Assembly: GCA_002286715.1 (NCBI GenBank) | Contig: NSJX01000006.1 | Location: forward strand, 620,001 to 684,000 | Source of the DNA: Dentipellis sp. KUC8613 | Taxonomy: Eukaryota; Basidiomycota; Agaricomycetes; Russulales; Hericiaceae | Length of the DNA: 64,000 nucleotides | Direction: 5' to 3' | Part shown: piece by piece, positions 8,851-56,461 of the stretch | Numbering within the stretch: position 1 is the first letter of the stretch | Layout: each line of letters opens with the position of its first letter | Notes under the pieces: generated by a model | Told to the model about the DNA's origin: nothing | Databases searched by the model: none | What the model saw: the letters and a program-made list of their open reading frames with translations, nothing else | Translations under genes and position numbers: made by a program

Positions 8851-9518
8851 ATGTCTGATACTAGCCCCGAGCTCTATGCAACCGCTGGTGAGAGTTATTT
8901 CACGCACGCATGCTTATAATTGACCTTTGGATTGTCAGACTTTTGTCTAATCCCGATGGGCACCGGCCCAGATCCCTCGGTAGCGTCATCCTCATGCTCA
9001 AGGCTCAAGCCCGAGGCTTGACGCGAATCATCCTGTGTCTATGCGTAGGTAGCTGAGTACGTCGCGGAATGTGCAAGAGTACTCGAGAAGTCGGGCCTCA
9101 AGTATCAGGTGCGCGTTTTGTCTCTTCGTCAACGACGTGTATCGATCGTCTTGCGTTCTAGATGCAGTAAGCTACCGCTCTCTATCTTCGAACGACGCGT
9201 TAATCGCTATTGTTTAGCGGTTATGGTACCAATTTAGGTATGCAGCCCGTTATTGTCGAATAGACACTTGCTGAGCGGCCTTGTCTAGAGGGCCCTTGGC
9301 AAGCCGTTTCCCAAGCCATCCATGACTGCCACGCTGCAGTACATGCTATAGGAGCACCTCGTGTTGCAACGGACATCCGGATCGGCACACGTGCGCCATC
9401 TCTTCCTCGTGCAGCCGCGCAGGGCAAGGACGACGAAGGGGAGAATGCGCGCAAGTTGCGACGCGTCAAGGAGATACTTGGGAAAGATAATGTCGGGAGC
9501 ACGAGCAACAAGGTGTAG
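8851..9518 (+). CDS. ECM15/UPF0045-like thiamine-binding-fold protein
   Basis: This small (about 125 aa) protein of the MTH1187/YkoF-like fold (PF01910) resembles yeast YBL001C/ECM15. The family binds thiamine or related ligands; its cellular role in fungi is unclear. Spliced in order, the exons read FCLIPMGTG, VARVLEKSGLKYQMHGYG-like text with TNLEGPWQAV, and then PRVATDIRIGTR, which match the family beta-strands and conserved Gly-x-Gly-Thr. The gene is cut by six introns of about 50 nt in 670 bp. Two exons are extremely short: 5 nt at 9162-9166 and 20 nt at 9218-9237. Both are needed to keep the conserved HGYGTNLEG in frame. The tail is basic and Lys-rich. The ATG lies 123 bp from the divergent IRS4-like start. 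Confidence 0.82.
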
Positions 9519-9854
9519 TAGTCATTCACGGTAAGTTACCCCAGCCTCTCTTCGTACACATTGGCTTCAGACTCCTGATGCATTTTCCTAGCGATGTGTG
9601 TGTCGAAAAATAGCCAATAAATGTATTTCTGGTCAAGTCCCGTCGCTGATTTATTTCTATTGTACGTCTCCGGGTATTTGTAAGTATCCTCTGTATCTGA
9701 CCTGCCGCTACTCTAGGCATATTCATATTGCTATCGAACGTATTCCTCTGCGACATTCAATGATTCATGCGGTTTGCCGCCGCAATTACAATAGCTACAC
9801 GCTGACGCCGTACACCTTGTGAGCCACAAATAGACTGACTGTGCCCATGGTAAA
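9519..9854. other. Intergenic, convergent 3' ends
   Basis: This stretch lies between the ECM15-like stop and the DNA methyltransferase stop. Small frames on both strands look random. I see no repeat or RNA gene. Confidence 0.45.
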
Positions 9855-12800
9855 TTACACTTCGGGGCTTGTTTCGCGAGCGTCCTCTTTCCACATCTTG
9901 AGCAGTGAATTGCCGATTGACTTGCCCAGGGCGCGCGCCAGCGGCACAGGGACTGCGTTTCCGATCTGTCGATGTTGCTGATAGAGAGATTCTGTTATGC
10001 AGGGCTAGATGAAAGACGCGGGCAATGGAACATACATCTGCAATGACTGTAGAAGGTCTGGTATTGATGGAAAGGATCTCCCAGCAATCGGGGAAGCCTT
10101 GTGCTCGTGCACATTCACGGACAGTCATGATCCGCTTTTGCTAATCACATCATCGTTGCCCGACGTGCAGTGTTGTAATCCAAGGTCAGAACACATGCAT
10201 AACTAACAGACTGAGAGAAGCACTGACTGAGTAATGCAACATGCAGCTGCCCTTGGAATTTGGGGACACTGTTGTCATGGCAGTACGAAATTTACCATCC
10301 TTGTCTATGCGCTCATATACCCCTATCATGTGTTGTGTGATGACTAACAAGTACATGGTTTTGATCAGGAAAACTAACCAGCAAGTTTTTTATAACCACC
10401 CTTGGCCCTCTTGCCAATGGATAGTTCAGGAGGCAAGTCTGCATGGTGAGTTTAGATGATGGCCAATGTAAAAAAATGCAGATAACATACTTGACCAGTC
10501 AGCTCCTGGATGGAGGGGAATGTTGACAACCCTGAAGACACAATTGAGGAAATGTGGTGTTTTTCAATGGTCAGTGCTCACCTTTCTACAACATCTGCTG
10601 CAAATCTTTGTGTATATTGAGCTGTGACTGTTTCACCAGCACCTTGTCTGACAGTCTCTTGATATCTTGTCAGGGGAGAAGATGCATACTCCTCAGCCTC
10701 ATTGAAGCCAGAATAGTGTGCAGATCCTGAGACTGCACTGAAGGCTTCAATCCCCTTCTGAAGCCTTTCAAGTGCTTCTGCCTCAGATAACTTGCTGGCC
10801 TTCAGCCTATTGTGAGGATTCTGCCAATCAAATGTAGGCTTATTTTATGGTTGTAAATATGTTTCCCAGACTTTAAAAGAGATGCACTCACCAAATCCCC
10901 AATAGCATCTTCCACTGTAACAGGGTATTTGGGAGCACCTTGGTTGTAGTCTCCAGGTATCAGTGAACGTGATGGTGGAGGTAATTGTGCTCCTGTAGGA
11001 AGATTGAAGAAGCCTTGTTTCTGAAAAAAATGTGTGGGAATAGGAAATGATGGTAAGGGAAGTCCTAGCTTGGCACCCCAGAAAATGACTCTTTTTCTGC
11101 CCTGAGGTGCACCATATTGTCCTGCCTGCAGAACCCTGAAGCTCACTTGATACCTAGCAAAGTGTTTGAACCATGAGGTGAGCATATTAAAGCATATAAA
11201 CATATGACTGACCCCAGGCTGGTCAAAGAGCGAAGAATAAATTTGACAACACCCATTTTGATGCCCCCTACAATTTTTTGCCCTTCTTGCTCACCCTTCA
11301 GAGGATGCAGAAGAAGTCCCACAACATTCTCCAGCAAGAACCAGCCAGGCCTGTAGAATTCCACATAGGAGATCATATTGCATACAAGGGTAGACCTTAT
11401 AGCCATTCATATAAATTATACTGTTTGACTATGGAGATAGGTTGATTCACCTTTTATCAATCACTTTCTATCACAGATTGTAGAAAAGTGAGATGACTGT
11501 CATCTGAGAAGTTTTGCTTGGCTTACCTTGTGATGATTGGCCATAGAATAACTTTGGCATGGGAGACCTATGAAATGTGAGTAATTATGCATACAATGAT
11601 AGTGAGGATCCACTTACCTCCATAAATGAAATCCACCTCTCCAGGTTGAGGCATAGGTGGAAGAATTGTCTTTCCATCATGCAAGCTAACCAATGGAGGG
11701 CAGTCCTTGCCTTCATATGTTTCAACAGCATGCTGGAGAAGAAGGTTACAGCACTGGTTGTACACTGTTATGTCTGGGTGGTTTCTCCTATATGTTTGAT
11801 CAGCAAGTTAATTAACAGATTGATCAAAAATGTTAAGTGTACTTCATTGTTAGGGAGCAGCTTGGGGAAAACTCCACTGCCCATTTTGTCTTCACAAACC
11901 CTGGTTCATTGAGACCTGCTGATAAGCCTCCAGCACCTGTTTCTGAAGGATTAGCAGTGGACAATATATCAAAACAGAAGCATACCAGCAAATAACTCCA
12001 GCCCAGAAAGTGGTTGATTACTTTTCAGTAATACACTGTGCTCCTTTAAGGTGCTCATGTGCTTGGGATAGCAAATGCTGCATTGATGAAAATTATCTGG
12101 ATCCAGTCTGCTTAGATCCTGGTGGGATCTGGCAGATGTTGAGATGGCCTGATGGCTAACATAAAAATGGTCATGTATGAGCCATTCATGCAGATCATCA
12201 ACAGAATCTTCATGAGCCACAAAACACTTTCCAGCAATCTGGTCAGAAGAGACTGATAATGTCTTGGATGTTGCAAATAAGTGGCTCTAAAAATACACAT
12301 CAGTATGATGAAACAATTTTCTGAATGGAACCAATAAAACCTCATCCTTTTTCCAGTTTTGAAGGTTAGGATTATCTCTTCTCTCCCTTCTAACCACATC
12401 ATCTACATGGCCAAAAATTTGAACCCTGATATGTAGGTCATCCTGTTTTGACCTCTTAACTTGCAAAATTTGAGCAAATTGATATGGTAGATCAGAATCC
12501 ACCTCTTGAAGCAGGTAGACAAAGTCATATCTGTGATATTCAATGCCATGCTGGGAAAATCCATCAGGATGGACAGTCAGCTCTGCATGCCTTTGTTCTC
12601 TTTTCCTGAGACCACAAGGAATACATTGCTGATGAGGTTTACACAATGCAAGAGCCTCAATTTCATCAAGATTTGCTAGCTCTATAAAGGAGCTGTCATC
12701 TTCATTCCAATAATGGGAGCTTGTGATGGCATATCAGAATGAAAGGAATATATAGTTGAATAGAGCTCACCTGAAAAAGAAACTGTTCTCCACAGAAAAC

Positions 12801-15169
12801 CCATTTTCACAGGGTTCAATTTCATCCAGGTGAAGCTGCCTAACATTAGCTTTTTTGATAATTGAACCGAGTTCAATATCATCACAAATATCCATCAGAA
12901 AGAGGCGATGTGAATGTGCAACCTCCTGTAAGATTGTCTTGGAGCTGTGAGAAAGCCACTGCCCATGGAACCACTTCTTGCCCTTGTCTTCAAACATATA
13001 GCAGATTTTGGCAAACCTGGAAGAAATGTCAGTATCTCAAACAAGGCTCATGCTATTGCATACCATTTGTTGTTGCCCAGAAAATTGCTTGTCTGAGCAT
13101 TTTCAGCTGAGTAATTTTGGGCCCTTGTTTCATCAGCATCTGTGCCAGGTTCTATAATCACAATATCTCCAACCTCCAAAAGAATTTGATTAGCACAACA
13201 CCCACCTGCAACTAGAAGTGAAAAAACTTACATGGTATTCCAGGCCATCTATCTTAACACTACTATAAGTGGGAGGATGCTCTCCTCTTTTCCCCCATGA
13301 GAGTGAAGGGTTTGCTGAGTGTTCTATTTCCTTCTCCAGCAGGAAGGTGGAGTCCTCCACCACAGCTTTGGGTGCATCCAGGACAGAAGTAGCAATGAGT
13401 ACAGGCTGGGGTAAAAAGAGATCCTCAGCAACTCGATTGACAACAGGTAGAACAGCTGTCTTGTTATGATGTGAGAGAACTTCCTGCTCCAGGTTTAGAT
13501 GGACAGCACGAGAGTGACCATGTGTTGACTTTTTTTGTGGCTTGAAATATTTGGGAATAGACAGAGTATTCTCCAAATGGCCTACTGATGCTGAGTTATC
13601 TGAGAAAAGACTTCTGACCAAGGGCACCCTGCCAAGTTTGATATTCTCTGCTTGAAGGTCCTCCAGAACACCAAACATATAGTTTTTCTAGTAAAAATGT
13701 GAATAAACTGTCTATGAACATACACAAATTGACCTACTACATCTTCAGCATGAAGATCCTCCTCAACTATGTTGCGACCCAAGATAGCATGAGGTTTGAC
13801 AAAAGCATCAAATGGATCAACAATGGTACCCAAAGATTGGACAAACTCTGGCAATGCTGTTCGAGGATTGTCCAGAGCAGTAGATACAACCAGATGGAGG
13901 AGCCTATGCTGTAGCCAGAACTTGACAAAAAAGGGTAGATAAGTGTCTGCTGGCAGGCCCAAGATGTACCAGGCATATTTAGTCTTCAGATACATTTTGC
14001 TAGAATTGAGAACCAAGTCATCAGCCTAAACTCCAGTCATAATATAACCTTACTCACATGTCAAGTGCACCTGTCTCCTCAGACACATCATGAATGTTGA
14101 ACTCCAGAATGGCAGACAGTTTGATATGATTGACTGCTTGACCAACACTCCCATCTTCATCAGCAACATCATCATCTTCAGGATTGTCATCCTCATCCTT
14201 ATCCTCATCCTCATCCTCATCATCTTCATCATCTTGAACCCATGGCTTCACAGTACCTGATGCACCATATAAGCTGGGGACAACAGACCCCAATGACAGC
14301 AGTTCAGCTATGTGAACCAGCTCCAGAGATTCCATTTTGTAAATGGAGAAATCAGAGAGGAGTCGAACAGGCACATCATCCTCTGTGCTGTTATTACCAT
14401 CAAGGTCTTCAGGATGCTCTGTTTCACCCATGATATGGAGGTTTTCATCCTCCACCAGCTCATCATCAGCAACATCATAGAGAACACCTTTTTATTTGTG
14501 AGATTTATCCATGGCAGGAAAAAAATGGCACATACATTGACTGATATCATCATGTGATTGTCCTGGTGCTGGGATTGGGAAGATGAAACTGGCAGGGGAT
14601 GCAGAGACCTGGTGAAGATTGGGATTATTGTGTTGCATCTGCACACCAGAATCCAGAGGATGCAAATTGTTCTCTGATGCCCTATTCCCAGCAGGTGAGG
14701 AGGTGCCACAATCACCAAATACCATGCCAACAAACCTGTTAGCTGCATTGTCATGGTTATATGAGCCTAATATGAGTCTTTATATGAGCCTCATATGGCC
14801 AACTCATTTAGTGAATCAATGTGGAACATGCCTGATTTCGAAGCCGCTCGACGAGAATGGCCGTGGACCGACAGCCCTACGTCCGAATTCTGCACGGCAG
14901 TCAAAGTCAAGTTCTAAGCTGTCACTACTAGGACACATGTTACTCACCTTCTCAAAGGAGTTCTGACCAATCTCAGCATTGCGAGACGAGAGGCTTGAAG
15001 GTGGACGCTCGAACGGCGACGATACAGCCAAATCCGAGCGTTCTGTCCGGTTCGATGAGTCGGTCGATGTTAATCGCCTCTTCTTCGCGGGGGATTGGTT
15101 TTGCGGACCTGGACGTTTCTGCGACGCTACTTTTGGCACCAGGACGTAAGGAATTAGCCTCGGTGGCAT
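9855..15169 (-). CDS. DNMT1-like DNA (cytosine-5) methyltransferase
   Basis: A DNMT1-type enzyme would maintain CpG methylation after replication. Start ATG 15169 gives a basic, nuclear-type N-terminus (PAKKRR). Then follow an RFTS-like domain (about 13700-14450, with an Asp/Glu run at 14170-14235), two BAH domains (about 13150-12750 and 12640-12000), and a full catalytic domain. Motif I is LFAGAGGLSAG. Motif IV is GGLPCQSYS with the catalytic Cys. Motif VI is FLLENVVG, VIII is APQGRKRVIFWG, IX is TVRECARAQGFPD and X is RQIGNAVPVPLARALG. No CXXC finger is seen, as in other fungal DNMT1s. There are many short introns, and a 17-nt exon (11451-11467) is needed for frame. I found no internal stop once introns are removed; the junction of exon 1 to exon 2 (about 14740-14950) is unresolved. 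The gene body between 10166 and 14838 is nearly free of CpG. Confidence 0.93.
10166..14838. other. CpG desert inside the methyltransferase gene
   Basis: By eye I count 11 CpG dinucleotides in 4,673 bp (positions near 10286, 10310, 10968, 11231, 12868, 12906, 13433, 13509, 13775, 13862, 14364). The same gene has about 21 CpG in its last 311 bp (9855-10165) and about 30 in its first 331 bp (14839-15169). TpG and CpA are plentiful, as expected from deamination of methylated CpG. The left edge lies in the intron just before motif IX, and the right edge lies in or near the first intron. Introns and exons are equally depleted. Confidence 0.93.
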
Positions 15170-15305
15170 AGCGCCACGCAGAAGTAAAAAGGAAACGAGT
15201 TCAACGCCTGCTTCAACCGTCACGTCGATGATGTGACGGTGTTCAGACGCGTCGCGTCACACGCGAACGGTACGCGTCTTGACCGCAACCATCTCCTGCC
15301 TCCTC
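15170..15305. promoter_or_regulatory. Bidirectional promoter of DNMT1-like gene and MCM7, with two MCB boxes
   Basis: The 136 bp between the two start codons contain ACGCGT at 15247-15252 and again at 15272-15277. ACGCGT is the MluI cell-cycle box bound by MBF in yeasts, which drives G1/S transcription of replication genes. The first box is part of ACGCGTCGCGTCAC (15247-15260), repeated exactly upstream of the APC15-like gene. That MBF acts here is inference. Confidence 0.55.
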
Positions 15306-18067
<2,762 letters not shown>

Positions 18068-53188: not shown

Positions 53189-54487
53189 ATGTCGTGGGGT
53201 GTGCAGGCATGTGTATTTTTGATGCTGTGGGTGGCGAGGGAGGTGGTGGCTCAGGTTTCGGCGCCGCAGTGCAGTGCGGGGTGGGACTGGGTGCGTGTTT
53301 TGGGTCTTCCTGTTTCTTCCTGCGCTCATCCCCGTGATATGTAGATGTATAACAGTCTCCACCAGTCCCCATGCGTCGTAGGCGCGTATATCGCTTCTGT
53401 GTGCAACAACGGCCGTAAGCCAGAGCCGTGTCCTAGTGTTCTGTGTGGGCGCATATTGACAAGAGTGTAGTGTTCAGCGTCGTGCCGCTGCCCTCTGGAC
53501 AGCATTATGTAGGGCCTGAGGCCGGGCTGAGCAGTCCTTGTCTCTGCAATACTGTCTCGTATTCGCTGTTCAGTGCGTGCGATCTTTGCCAAGGTGGCTT
53601 CCCGACAACGTACGTTCCATTTCATTCATAAATTTGCACAAGCTCATGCATGGAACGGTACCAGGTGGTCTGATTGGCATCTGAACTGTACTGCGGTGTC
53701 GCCCGATGGCGTGTAAGTATCCGCGCTTGTGGTTCGACTTTCTGCAGAGTTGAATGTGGCGGGCTTTAGGTTAGAAGTGGATATTCCGAATAGTACGAAG
53801 GTGCCACAGTGGGCTTTCCAGAATGTCACGGTAAATGCGACTCGATTCTTTGAGATTCTCTTTGCTCACATTGCTTGTTCTCAGGCGACGAATATGTGGA
53901 GCAATGCAACAGCTTTCAGTGTCGGCGGTACGTAGACCATTGATTCCCAATAGATTTCATTGTGTCTAACTAATCAATTCAGATGGCGTGGAATCCCCGG
54001 CACCTAGCGCCATCAACAGCTCTCATGGCAAATCGAACGTCGGCCCTATCGTAGGCGGTGTAGTGGGCGGCATCGGGGGCGCAATCCTGCTCGCAGGGGC
54101 CATCGGCTTCTTCATCATTCGTCAACGGCGGAGACGACTCTCCCACACGGCACCATCGGCGCTCTATGCTCAGGAATCGCTCAACAATCTGAATCCGAAC
54201 AAAGCTGTCTATCCCGTCGCTGGGCCAGAAGTGCCGAGACGGTACTACGTGCGTTTTATTCTGTTCCCTGCGAGCGCATCTATGTGCGAAGCACCGGCTG
54301 ACATCATGATCGTTATGATGCTTCACAGGACCCGTCTGACCCGGCCACATACCCGCCCATGTCCCAGATACCAAGCTCACCACCTATGCATGCACAAGCC
54401 GACGAAGTGCCGCAGGAACCAATGTACGGCGAGAACGGGTTTATCATGCAGCCGAATCGCGTGTATACAGGCCTTCCGGAGCTGTAG
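53189..54487 (+). CDS. Secreted/plasma-membrane single-pass protein, family member 1
   Basis: The signal peptide (MSWGVQACVFLMLWVAREVV, cut near Ala-Gln) is followed by a Cys-containing extracellular domain: CSAGWDW, MYNSLHQSPCVVGAY, SSPCLCNTVSYSLFSACDLCQ, then PQWAFQNVT. A short Ser/Ala stalk leads to a Gly-rich transmembrane helix (VGPIVGGVVGGIGGAILLAG, about 54040-54110) and a basic stop (RQRRRR). The cytosolic tail is Pro/Tyr-rich and ends YTGLPEL. No catalytic motif is seen. About six introns of 50-60 nt, with some joins inferred by matching the paralogue at 57127. Its role is unknown; the layout suits a cell-surface sensor or adhesion protein. Confidence 0.7.
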
Positions 54488-55559
54488 ACCGCCCGTTCGA
54501 ACCCCTTCGGCTCTTTCAGCTTGGCTTTGCGAGCTTCCGTGATGATTTACGGTATCGACTCACGACCATCCAGCAGTATCATGATTTCATTCACGACTTG
54601 ATCTATCTATCTATACACACACCCTAGGTCGACCGTGGACTTTCGTATTTATTGGCGCTCTGATCATGATGGCTGGTAGTCTTCGTCTCTGCTCGGGACT
54701 TGTTGTTTTTATCTTCAAGCAGGATCGGACCTGTAATCGTTTGTATCATTTACTCACTATACAGCACTTATTGCAGCACTTGGTGCTGTCTTCGATATCG
54801 CTATTTTGTCGAGTCCAGGTTACTTGTCGCAGACGGGCTGCACTTGTGGGCTCGCGCGGTGATATCAACTTTTGGTGGTTTTGCCGATATTTTTTCGCCC
54901 TCTGTTCTCAAGCCTCTAGGTGAGCCCCTTGACCATAATCTTCCATTTGCCAATACAGTACTGCGTCATGCATTAATATTATCAGACGATCACGACCCTG
55001 CAGTGGCAGTGGCATGCGGTGCGACCTCCCGCTCGTGCCTTACCCAAACTGGCTTTTGACTTGCGGGCATCACGGGCAATGGACAGGATTCGGGCCCACC
55101 AAAGGAGATTCGGAGCTGCCTGAGCGCTGTTTCAGGGTCAGGATGGGTTTGTTTTCTGGTGAGGTGCTCATTCGAAACATGAGACTATGTGGACGCGAGC
55201 TTTGAGCTTGGTGGCCGTTGGTGAGCGCATTCGTTTCTTTGGAAGAGTGGTAATCGACGGGTGCGGCAGTTGTTTGAAGGACTGCTCTTAGGGACACCGC
55301 CTTCGAATGCCTGATATTATCTCCCTGCTATTTACTTGAACATCTCAGAGTGGTACGGTGCTATTTTTGCCCTGGGATGAAGCAGTCACTGCAACTCTCA
55401 TCGATGCTGACAATCCTCCGGCTTGTCTGAAGCAGCTGCTATGCTCGATCGGCGGATACCTCGAGAAAAGTTGCAAAGACATGATGATCCTATGTTTCGA
55501 CCGTTTTTTCCAGGTGTCCATTCTGATATGATACACTGCACACTGGTGTATATGGTTAC
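54488..55559. other. Intergenic 1.1 kb, no gene seen
   Basis: After the first membrane-protein gene (stop 54487) the sequence has no supported exon. Short frames at 54666-55205 have no domain and differ from local codon bias. It may include the 3' UTR and part of the damaged copy that follows. Confidence 0.4.
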
Positions 55560-56461
55560 CCTCACTGTACAGTACCAGCGGCTTGAAGTATACCGACCTC
55601 TTGGCGAATCATGCAAGTTCTTGTGTCTGCAATGCAACTTCACGCACTCTTCTGACTGCATATGCCGCGTACAGGGACACCAACCACCGCGTGAGCCTCC
55701 CCGCCGGCGAGCAACCTAATAACGAAACCATAGCTCGGCTCTAGGGTCGACCAACTGTACCTCCGTGACTCTCGTACAGCGAAGAATGTGCGTCATTCTG
55801 CCGTAACCGCGTAAATTTGTATTGCTCATTATTATGTGCTAATTGCCTACGCCTGTCTCTGGGCGAGCGAGTGCTTCGCAATGGGTCTCGCTAGCAGCAG
55901 CATCTAGAACTGACAGTGAGCAGAATTTTATTTCCTCGCCTATCACAGTATGCGTCTTTTTCCTTGAAGGCGCAATTGGGTCGAGCCCTGGATCCCTGCC
56001 GTCCTCTATTGCGGTGCCGTCTCAGGCGCCGGCCCCATCTAAGTATACCCGAACCTACCAAACCGGATGCAAGCGTAGGCGGCATTGTAGGCGATGTTGT
56101 GGGTGTTGCTATCCTTACTCTCGTGGTCGCGTTCTTGCGTATCAGACGCTGTCTGGCGGTGGAGCTCGAAGCTGTGGCAGAGCCTCCATGTGCCGGTCTT
56201 GTCGTGGAAGATATTGGGGAGACTGCTATGTTCTGTAACCTGACAGCTTCGGACAGACACCACGTCCGTTTTTGTTCCGTGTCTGGCTCCATAGGTTGGC
56301 CTTCCCAGTTCCGTCCTTGAAATTTTGAGCATTCAATCAATCTCGGTGCGTTTCCGGACACAGCAACGTCGTACACGGATACAGAAGCCTCCACTCCCCC
56401 AGACCGTTTGCGCTCAGCTGGTCTGTTATACGACGACGGTACAGTGCAGGTGGAGCATTAA
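55560..56461 (+). pseudogene. Degenerate third copy of the membrane-protein family
   Basis: Pieces of the family appear in order but do not join well. A Cys segment at about 55611-55690 reads SSCVCNATSRTLLTAYAAY, against SPCLCNTVSYSLFSACDLC in the copy upstream. STNCTS-like text follows near 55750. A Gly-rich transmembrane stretch with basic stop lies at about 56075-56150 (VGGIVGDVVGVAILTLVVAF then RIRRCL). A tail runs to TAA 56459-56461. No start with signal peptide is evident, and stops break the reading between the segments. It could be a diverged but live gene with unusual splicing. I favour a decayed copy. Confidence 0.45.

Follow-up and report, generated by a model that had tools for sequence, protein, structure and literature searches.

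An almost CpG-free body in a DNMT1-RFD methyltransferase gene of Dentipellis sp. KUC8613, the probable scar of long methylation

The window treated here is a 64,000-bp stretch of Dentipellis sp. KUC8613 (family Hericiaceae, order Russulales; C128:620001-684000 of the 34.1-Mb genome G000). Its minus strand carries a DNMT1-RFD gene, referred to as DNMT1a, whose body has lost nearly every CpG dinucleotide, while both ends of the same gene are CpG-normal. The most probable cause (roughly 0.8) is long CpG methylation of the gene body and subsequent decay of methyl-CpG under purifying selection, a course that would be shared by a second DNMT1 gene (DNMT1b) and, as judged from sampled pieces, by two Argonaute genes. 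The features of DNMT1a are as follows.

9855..15169, minus strand: DNMT1-RFD gene DNMT1a, 23 exons, 1,362 amino acids (gene model and alignment)
14839..15169, no strand assigned: CpG-normal 5′ end with exon 1, intron 1 and most of exon 2; 31 CpG in 331 bp, observed/expected ratio (O/E) 1.27
10166..14838, no strand assigned: CpG-free block; 11 CpG against 209.5 expected from base composition
9855..10165, no strand assigned: CpG-normal 3′ end with the end of intron 21, exon 22, intron 22 and exon 23; 21 CpG in 311 bp, O/E 0.99
10286..14365, minus strand: 11 surviving CpGs, with the C of the minus strand at 14365, 13863, 13776, 13510, 13435, 12907, 12869, 11232, 10969, 10311 and 10287
11937..11985, minus strand: intron 11, which splits motif I (ELFAGAGG) at the Gly codon after ELFA

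The CpG-free block and its edges

The block spans 4,673 bp with a CpG O/E of 0.05 (Poisson P about 1e-73). A preliminary description of this stretch had counted its 11 CpGs by eye, and the exact recount returns the same number; it also returns the 21 CpGs of the 3′ end, and 31 at the 5′ end where about 30 had been given. The sharp edges that it placed within the gene are located by likelihood change points at 10165, inside intron 21, and 14839, near the end of exon 2. Exons and introns had been described as equally affected, and both are indeed hit: the 19 exons in the block hold 11 CpGs against 172.0 expected, and the 19 introns hold none against 31.6 expected. A profile of CpG O/E across the window in 500-bp bins, which had been proposed as a check, gives 0.43 and 0.41 for the two bins at the block edges and 0.63 to 1.41 for all bins beyond them. 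The longest distance without a CpG is 1,637 bp inside the block and 116 bp in the remainder of the 64 kb outside block and edge.

An apparently working gene

DNMT1a appears to be an intact, working DNMT1-RFD gene with predicted CpG methyltransferase activity. Its model, which runs on the minus strand from 15169 to 9855 as the preliminary description had implied, is based on an alignment with Dentipellis fragilis and six other orthologues. The protein matches the annotated KUC8613 protein P0001, in which Pfam places DNMT1-RFD, two BAH stretches and DNA_methylase in this order. The families PF12047, PF01426 (two stretches) and PF00145 are found in both P0001 and P0121, the annotated counterpart of DNMT1b, and both proteins thus have the order of RFD, BAH and C5-methylase that is required of a basidiomycete DNMT1-RFD (DNMT1/Masc2). 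The window model contains GGLPCQ, LLENV, QGRKRV and QIGNAVP, which represent the PCQ, ENV, QxRxR-type and GNAVP motifs, and motif I is whole once intron 11 is spliced. With the frame and the catalytic motifs in place, the earlier claim that this is not the simple decay of a dead gene is supported. P0001 is 82% identical to the D. fragilis protein and 49% to that of Artomyces. For the D. fragilis orthologue, the match to solved DNMT1 chains has an E value of 2e-63.

The introns are of the GT-AG type apart from intron 2, which is GC-AG in the present model. A frameshift suspected near 13690 was rejected, as the alignment led to an intron placement instead. The public model P0001 skips the exon with TVRECARAQGFPD (10140-10036), an exon that D. 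fragilis shares with the other relatives in the alignment. A repeat search over 9000-16200 returned low-complexity sequence and short pairs; a direct repeat of 18 bp (94%, 14757-14797) sits within the block close to its 5′ edge, around intron 2. Plus-strand open reading frames (ORFs) nearby encode MCM7 and a piece of a class I tRNA synthetase (E and Q).

The mutational signature of the loss

TpG and CpA were said to be abundant in the block, and their combined O/E is 1.49, with nearly equal counts of 427 TpG and 423 CpA. Sequence context was compared at the silent sites of two-fold C/T codons. C occupies 47% of these positions in DNMT1a before A, C or T and none of 97 before G; DNMT1b behaves identically (47% and 0 of 47). 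In 12 reference ORFs, long window ORFs selected for their length without curation as genes, the values are 65% and 60%. The loss is therefore specific to CpG and not a drift toward AT. Among the codons of DNMT1a, NCG is missing altogether and NCA is raised. A simulation in which 30% of TpG and CpA were converted back brought the O/E values of CpG, TpG and CpA to 0.99, 1.06 and 0.98, to be compared with 1.03, 1.04 and 1.13 in the flanks. The CpA-to-TpA signature of the Neurospora type of repeat-induced point mutation (RIP) is not found in DNMT1a (TpA/ApT 0.56 against 0.66 in the flanks). A signature that is symmetric between strands fits the deamination of methyl-CpG on both of them. DNMT1a combines CpG-specific depletion, a gain of TpG and CpA, spared ends and a constrained protein, as is characteristic of a gene-body-methylation scar and as the preliminary description had proposed; in DNMT1b, the 3′ end is not spared.

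The surviving CpGs are concentrated where their loss would alter the protein. Ten of the 11 lie in CGN arginine codons, and the remaining one, at 12869, spans a codon boundary (CTC|G); in the 12 reference ORFs, the CGN share is 262 of 1,177 CpGs (P 2.6e-6). Pooling of both DNMT1 genes gives 15 of 17 coding CpGs in CGN codons (P 1.4e-8). Arginine is encoded in the DNMT1a body by 10 CGN and 32 AGR codons and in the CpG-normal ends by 14 CGN and 3 AGR codons. Identity to D. fragilis is 84% in the body and 71% in the ends; the corresponding values for DNMT1b are 87% for the body and 85% for the CpG-normal part. At position 758, KUC8613 has His, though 96% of its relatives have Arg.

A second CpG-free DNMT1 gene

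PF00145 has matches at five loci in the genome. One of them, on contig C22, is DNMT1b, an intact DNMT1-RFD model with 17 exons and 1,253 amino acids; 95% of the query aligns with P0121, at 99% identity. Its motifs read AGFPCQ, FENV, QTRVRF and QIGNAVP. The depleted stretch is as follows.

L009 3549-7099 (C22): CpG-free block of DNMT1b, 8 CpG in 3,551 bp

The block starts in intron 5 and ends about 650 bp beyond the stop codon, where CpG-rich DNA returns abruptly, so that one edge lies within the gene and the other beyond it. Of the six CpGs in its coding sequence, five fall in CGN codons. The 5′ part of the gene (L009 7128-8839) is CpG-rich and represents the opposite extreme to the rest: its arginine codons comprise 38 CGN and 9 AGR, and CGC alone makes up 31 of the 47. 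The other three PF00145 loci, on C150, C100 and C92, are CpG-normal over 10 kb each; the first is presumably DNMT5-like (from its helicase-like reading), the second presumably DNMT2-like, and the third is left without a class.

Searches of the genome at E 0.001 gave no further DNA copy of DNMT1a beyond a 35-bp match on C96, none of DNMT1b beyond a 125-bp inverted match within itself, and no DNA match between the two genes. No transposable element or duplication that would account for either block was found.

Silencing genes and the rest of the genome

Five large contigs were sampled at arbitrary, evenly spaced places. Of 20 pieces of 2 kb, 19 were readable and one was mostly N; another 20 pieces measured 400 bp. 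Comparable depletion occurs in none of these 39, in which the lowest whole-piece O/E is 0.68. The depletion is thus not general in this genome; had many other genes been equally low, the preliminary description would have counted it as unremarkable. A second set comprised 30 places with silencing or related genes: the five DNMT loci, two SRA, seven RdRP (RNA-dependent RNA polymerase) and six Argonaute places, six of nine TET/JBP matches (two below the family cut-off), two of five RNase III places, one Pre-SET and one SPO11. The two RNase III places are those with paired domains, called Dicer here; the Dicer and Pre-SET pieces are 80 bp each. A PAZ match at C76 242940 lies outside the sample.

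Four of the 30 are CpG-free: DNMT1a, DNMT1b and, on contig C76, two of the Argonaute places. The SRA, RdRP, Dicer, TET, Pre-SET and SPO11 pieces, the three other methylase loci and the four other Argonaute places show no such depletion. The comparison of 4/30 with 0/39 gives a one-sided P of 0.03 and was framed after the data had been seen. The Argonaute pieces, which are in opposite orientation and 17 kb apart, are as follows.

C76:269048-269447 (L155): Argonaute piece, 0 CpG in 400 bp
C76:286540-286939 (L156): Argonaute piece, 1 CpG in 400 bp

Their PAZ matches contain 0 and 0 CpG in 45 bp. Both pieces stay in frame across plausible introns, and they are about 70% identical in DNA; a DNA search with one of them returned the other as its only match. 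At points 1.7-2.8 kb outside the Argonaute matches, 5, 9 and 2 CpGs were counted per 80 bp, and the fourth point is N. Judged from these short pieces, the C76 Argonautes are likely intact whole genes. As DNMT1b and the two Argonaute pieces are CpG-free as well, the pattern extends beyond a single gene.

Two further observations concern CpG content elsewhere. An inverted RdRP pair on the contig of the window, C128:46877-49052 (plus strand) and 53559-55899 (minus strand), is CpG-normal in 400-bp pieces. Among 16 samples taken at contig starts (three wholly N, two partly N), five contain shorter CpG-poor stretches of 417-1,093 bp with a GC content of 0.34-0.39, perhaps decayed repeats.

L013 3684-4630: CpG-poor stretch
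L018 5926-6404: CpG-poor stretch
L019: three CpG-poor stretches
L022 3081-4173: CpG-poor stretch
L027: two CpG-poor stretches

Age and spread among relatives

Relatives were compared at the protein level, with arginine content standing in for the CpG content of orthologues. The DNMT1a body contains 3.5% Arg in KUC8613 and 3.9% in D. fragilis, against a median of 6.1% over 107 rows; low values also occur in Neolentinus (3.4%), Pleurotus djamor (3.9%) and Russula emetica (4.5%). By this measure, a similar state may exist in DNMT1a of Neolentinus lepideus, Abortiporus biennis and Pleurotus djamor. The DNMT1b body has 4.9% Arg in both Dentipellis species, against a median of 6.7% (122 rows); Pluteus (3.3%) and three other rows fall below Dentipellis, and eight Russulaceae rows reach 7.5-9.9%. 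This suggests that DNMT1b of the Russulaceae is not depleted, and the state would therefore be patchy and not common to all agaricomycetes.

The closest view is offered by D. fragilis. At the 15 CGN arginines of both KUC8613 bodies, it differs at five, and all five changes are to Cys, His or Gln, the products of CpG transitions. At 65 AGR arginines, it differs at nine, with one change of this type (P 7e-4), and at 51 aligned CGN arginines in CpG-normal parts it differs at nine, with three of this type (P 0.012). On account of these changes at the KUC8613 CGN arginines, the same CpG pressure is probably acting in D. fragilis. Tests per species of Arg-to-His/Gln/Cys/Trp against Lys are weak, and their P values are uncorrected. 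When viral_contigs was searched with the DNMT1 alignment, 71 loci came back, none above 34% identity to the query in its best segment, and none of them was used.

Proposed course and rival explanations

In the favoured explanation, the body of DNMT1a would have been CpG-methylated over long evolutionary time, with the first ~330 bp and the last ~310 bp free of methylation. Methylated C would have turned into T on both strands until nearly every CpG that the protein could dispense with was lost. Those that remain, mostly in arginine codons, would have been kept since their loss alters the protein. DNMT1b and, per the sampled pieces, the two Argonaute genes would have followed an identical course. 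We infer methylation as the cause of the loss, and likewise that D. fragilis shares the state.

Several observations weigh against this explanation. The lost NCG codons of DNMT1a did not all turn into NCA, and TpA/ApT in DNMT1b (0.71) is slightly over that of the DNMT1a flanks (0.66). Protein constraint is an imperfect guide to which CpGs survived: in DNMT1a, the median Arg frequency among relatives is 0.56 at kept CGN positions and 0.215 at AGR positions, a trend only (P 0.08), and three of the ten kept CGN positions are Arg in <30% of relatives; in DNMT1b, kept CGN arginines are not more conserved than AGR ones (0.46 against 0.65). Reviews describe fungal methylation as residing mainly in transposons and gene-body methylation as largely lost, with exceptions (PMC7862722, PMC13297926). 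In Coprinopsis, heavy methylation and hydroxymethylation of genes go with weak or absent expression (PMC8889193), which fits ill with a methylated, working DNMT1a.

As to why these genes were methylated, both DNMT1 genes and the two Argonaute genes could carry body methylation as part of a negative feedback that keeps the capacity for silencing constant, with the edges as the limits of methylation. This is put forward tentatively; it predicts methylation at present and de-repression on loss of DNMT activity. The preliminary description had suggested that the gene is body-methylated by its own product. The decay signature fits body methylation as such; the CpG-free DNMT1b and Argonaute pieces speak against the narrow form confined to one gene. 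Somewhat less probable is a non-exclusive variant of the favoured explanation without feedback, in which the genes are off and body-methylated through most of the life cycle and active only briefly, for example around meiosis. It would show as methylation with little mycelial transcript. Gene methylation accompanies low expression in Pleurotus, Ganoderma and Coprinopsis (PMC5974365, PMC4457147, PMC8889193). On the other hand, SPO11 and the other sampled silencing genes, the two Argonautes excepted, are CpG-normal, and monokaryotic mycelium of Pleurotus transcribes all of its identified DNMTase genes (PMC5974365), which may bear on Dentipellis by analogy.

Homology-triggered silencing of the RIP or MIP (methylation induced premeiotically) type, by which past duplicates were read as repeats, methylated and then decayed, is improbable. 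A CpG type of RIP is reported for Ganoderma (PMC4457147), and the two C76 Argonaute genes are related, on one contig and 70% identical in DNA. However, at E 0.001 neither DNMT1 gene has a second DNA copy that could serve as a repeated target, beyond the 35-bp match and the self-match, though past copies are possible; the CpA-to-TpA signature is absent from DNMT1a, the inverted RdRP pair on C128 is CpG-normal, and the reading frames are intact. A kingdom-wide screen places RIP-like signatures in ascomycetes only (PMC12543289). Slightly less probable still is selection against CpG, in which target sites were purged so that the enzyme cannot silence these genes, an option that the preliminary description had left standing. 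It agrees with the nature of the affected genes, which serve methylation and silencing, and it would empty introns too, as seen. It is disfavoured by the symmetric excess of TpG and CpA, with transitions alone meeting the mass balance, and by the D. fragilis changes at surviving CGN codons. Moreover, ten CGN codons are left in DNMT1a, three of them CGA and thus one synonymous step from AGA, and the ends of DNMT1a retain 52 CpGs and the 5′ part of DNMT1b 38 CGN codons, although an escape should not halt in the middle of a gene. The insertion of a foreign or mobile CpG-poor segment, to which the sharp edges might point, is in the main refuted: the block holds most of an ordinary orthologue including its introns, its DNA is single copy save the 35-bp match, and the MCM7 and tRNA synthetase ORFs lie nearby.

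Relation to known systems and meaning

DNMT1a resembles genes with animal or plant gene-body CpG methylation in its CpG-only loss from exons and introns, its intactness and the sparing of both ends. It differs in that the loss in Dentipellis is confined to very few sampled places, is nearly complete (O/E 0.05) and is known here as a mutational scar. With the CpG-type RIP or MIP of repeats it has in common the transitions from CpG to TpG and CpA and methylation as the presumed cause; in contrast to such repeats, the DNMT1 genes are single copy in DNA, intact and located amid CpG-normal DNA. The plant ROS1 "methylstat" and the promoter methylation of animal DNMT genes are feedback loops that act at promoters. 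There, too, the methylation machinery is itself a target of methylation, but in Dentipellis it is the gene body that has lost its CpGs, with a CpG-normal 5′ side, and feedback is only conjectured. Among the literature matches listed, in which subscription journals are thinly covered, none reports fungal methyltransferase or Argonaute genes that are CpG-free.

Fungi are held to have largely dropped gene-body methylation for its mutational cost. In Dentipellis, a few apparently intact genes, all of them silencing machinery so far, seem to have borne that cost almost fully, which opens a direct and cheap test of self-regulation in mushroom silencing. The expansion of DNMT1-RFD copies in Agaricomycotina is called unresolved in a 2026 review (PMC13297926), and CpG-free DNMT1 genes may bear on it.

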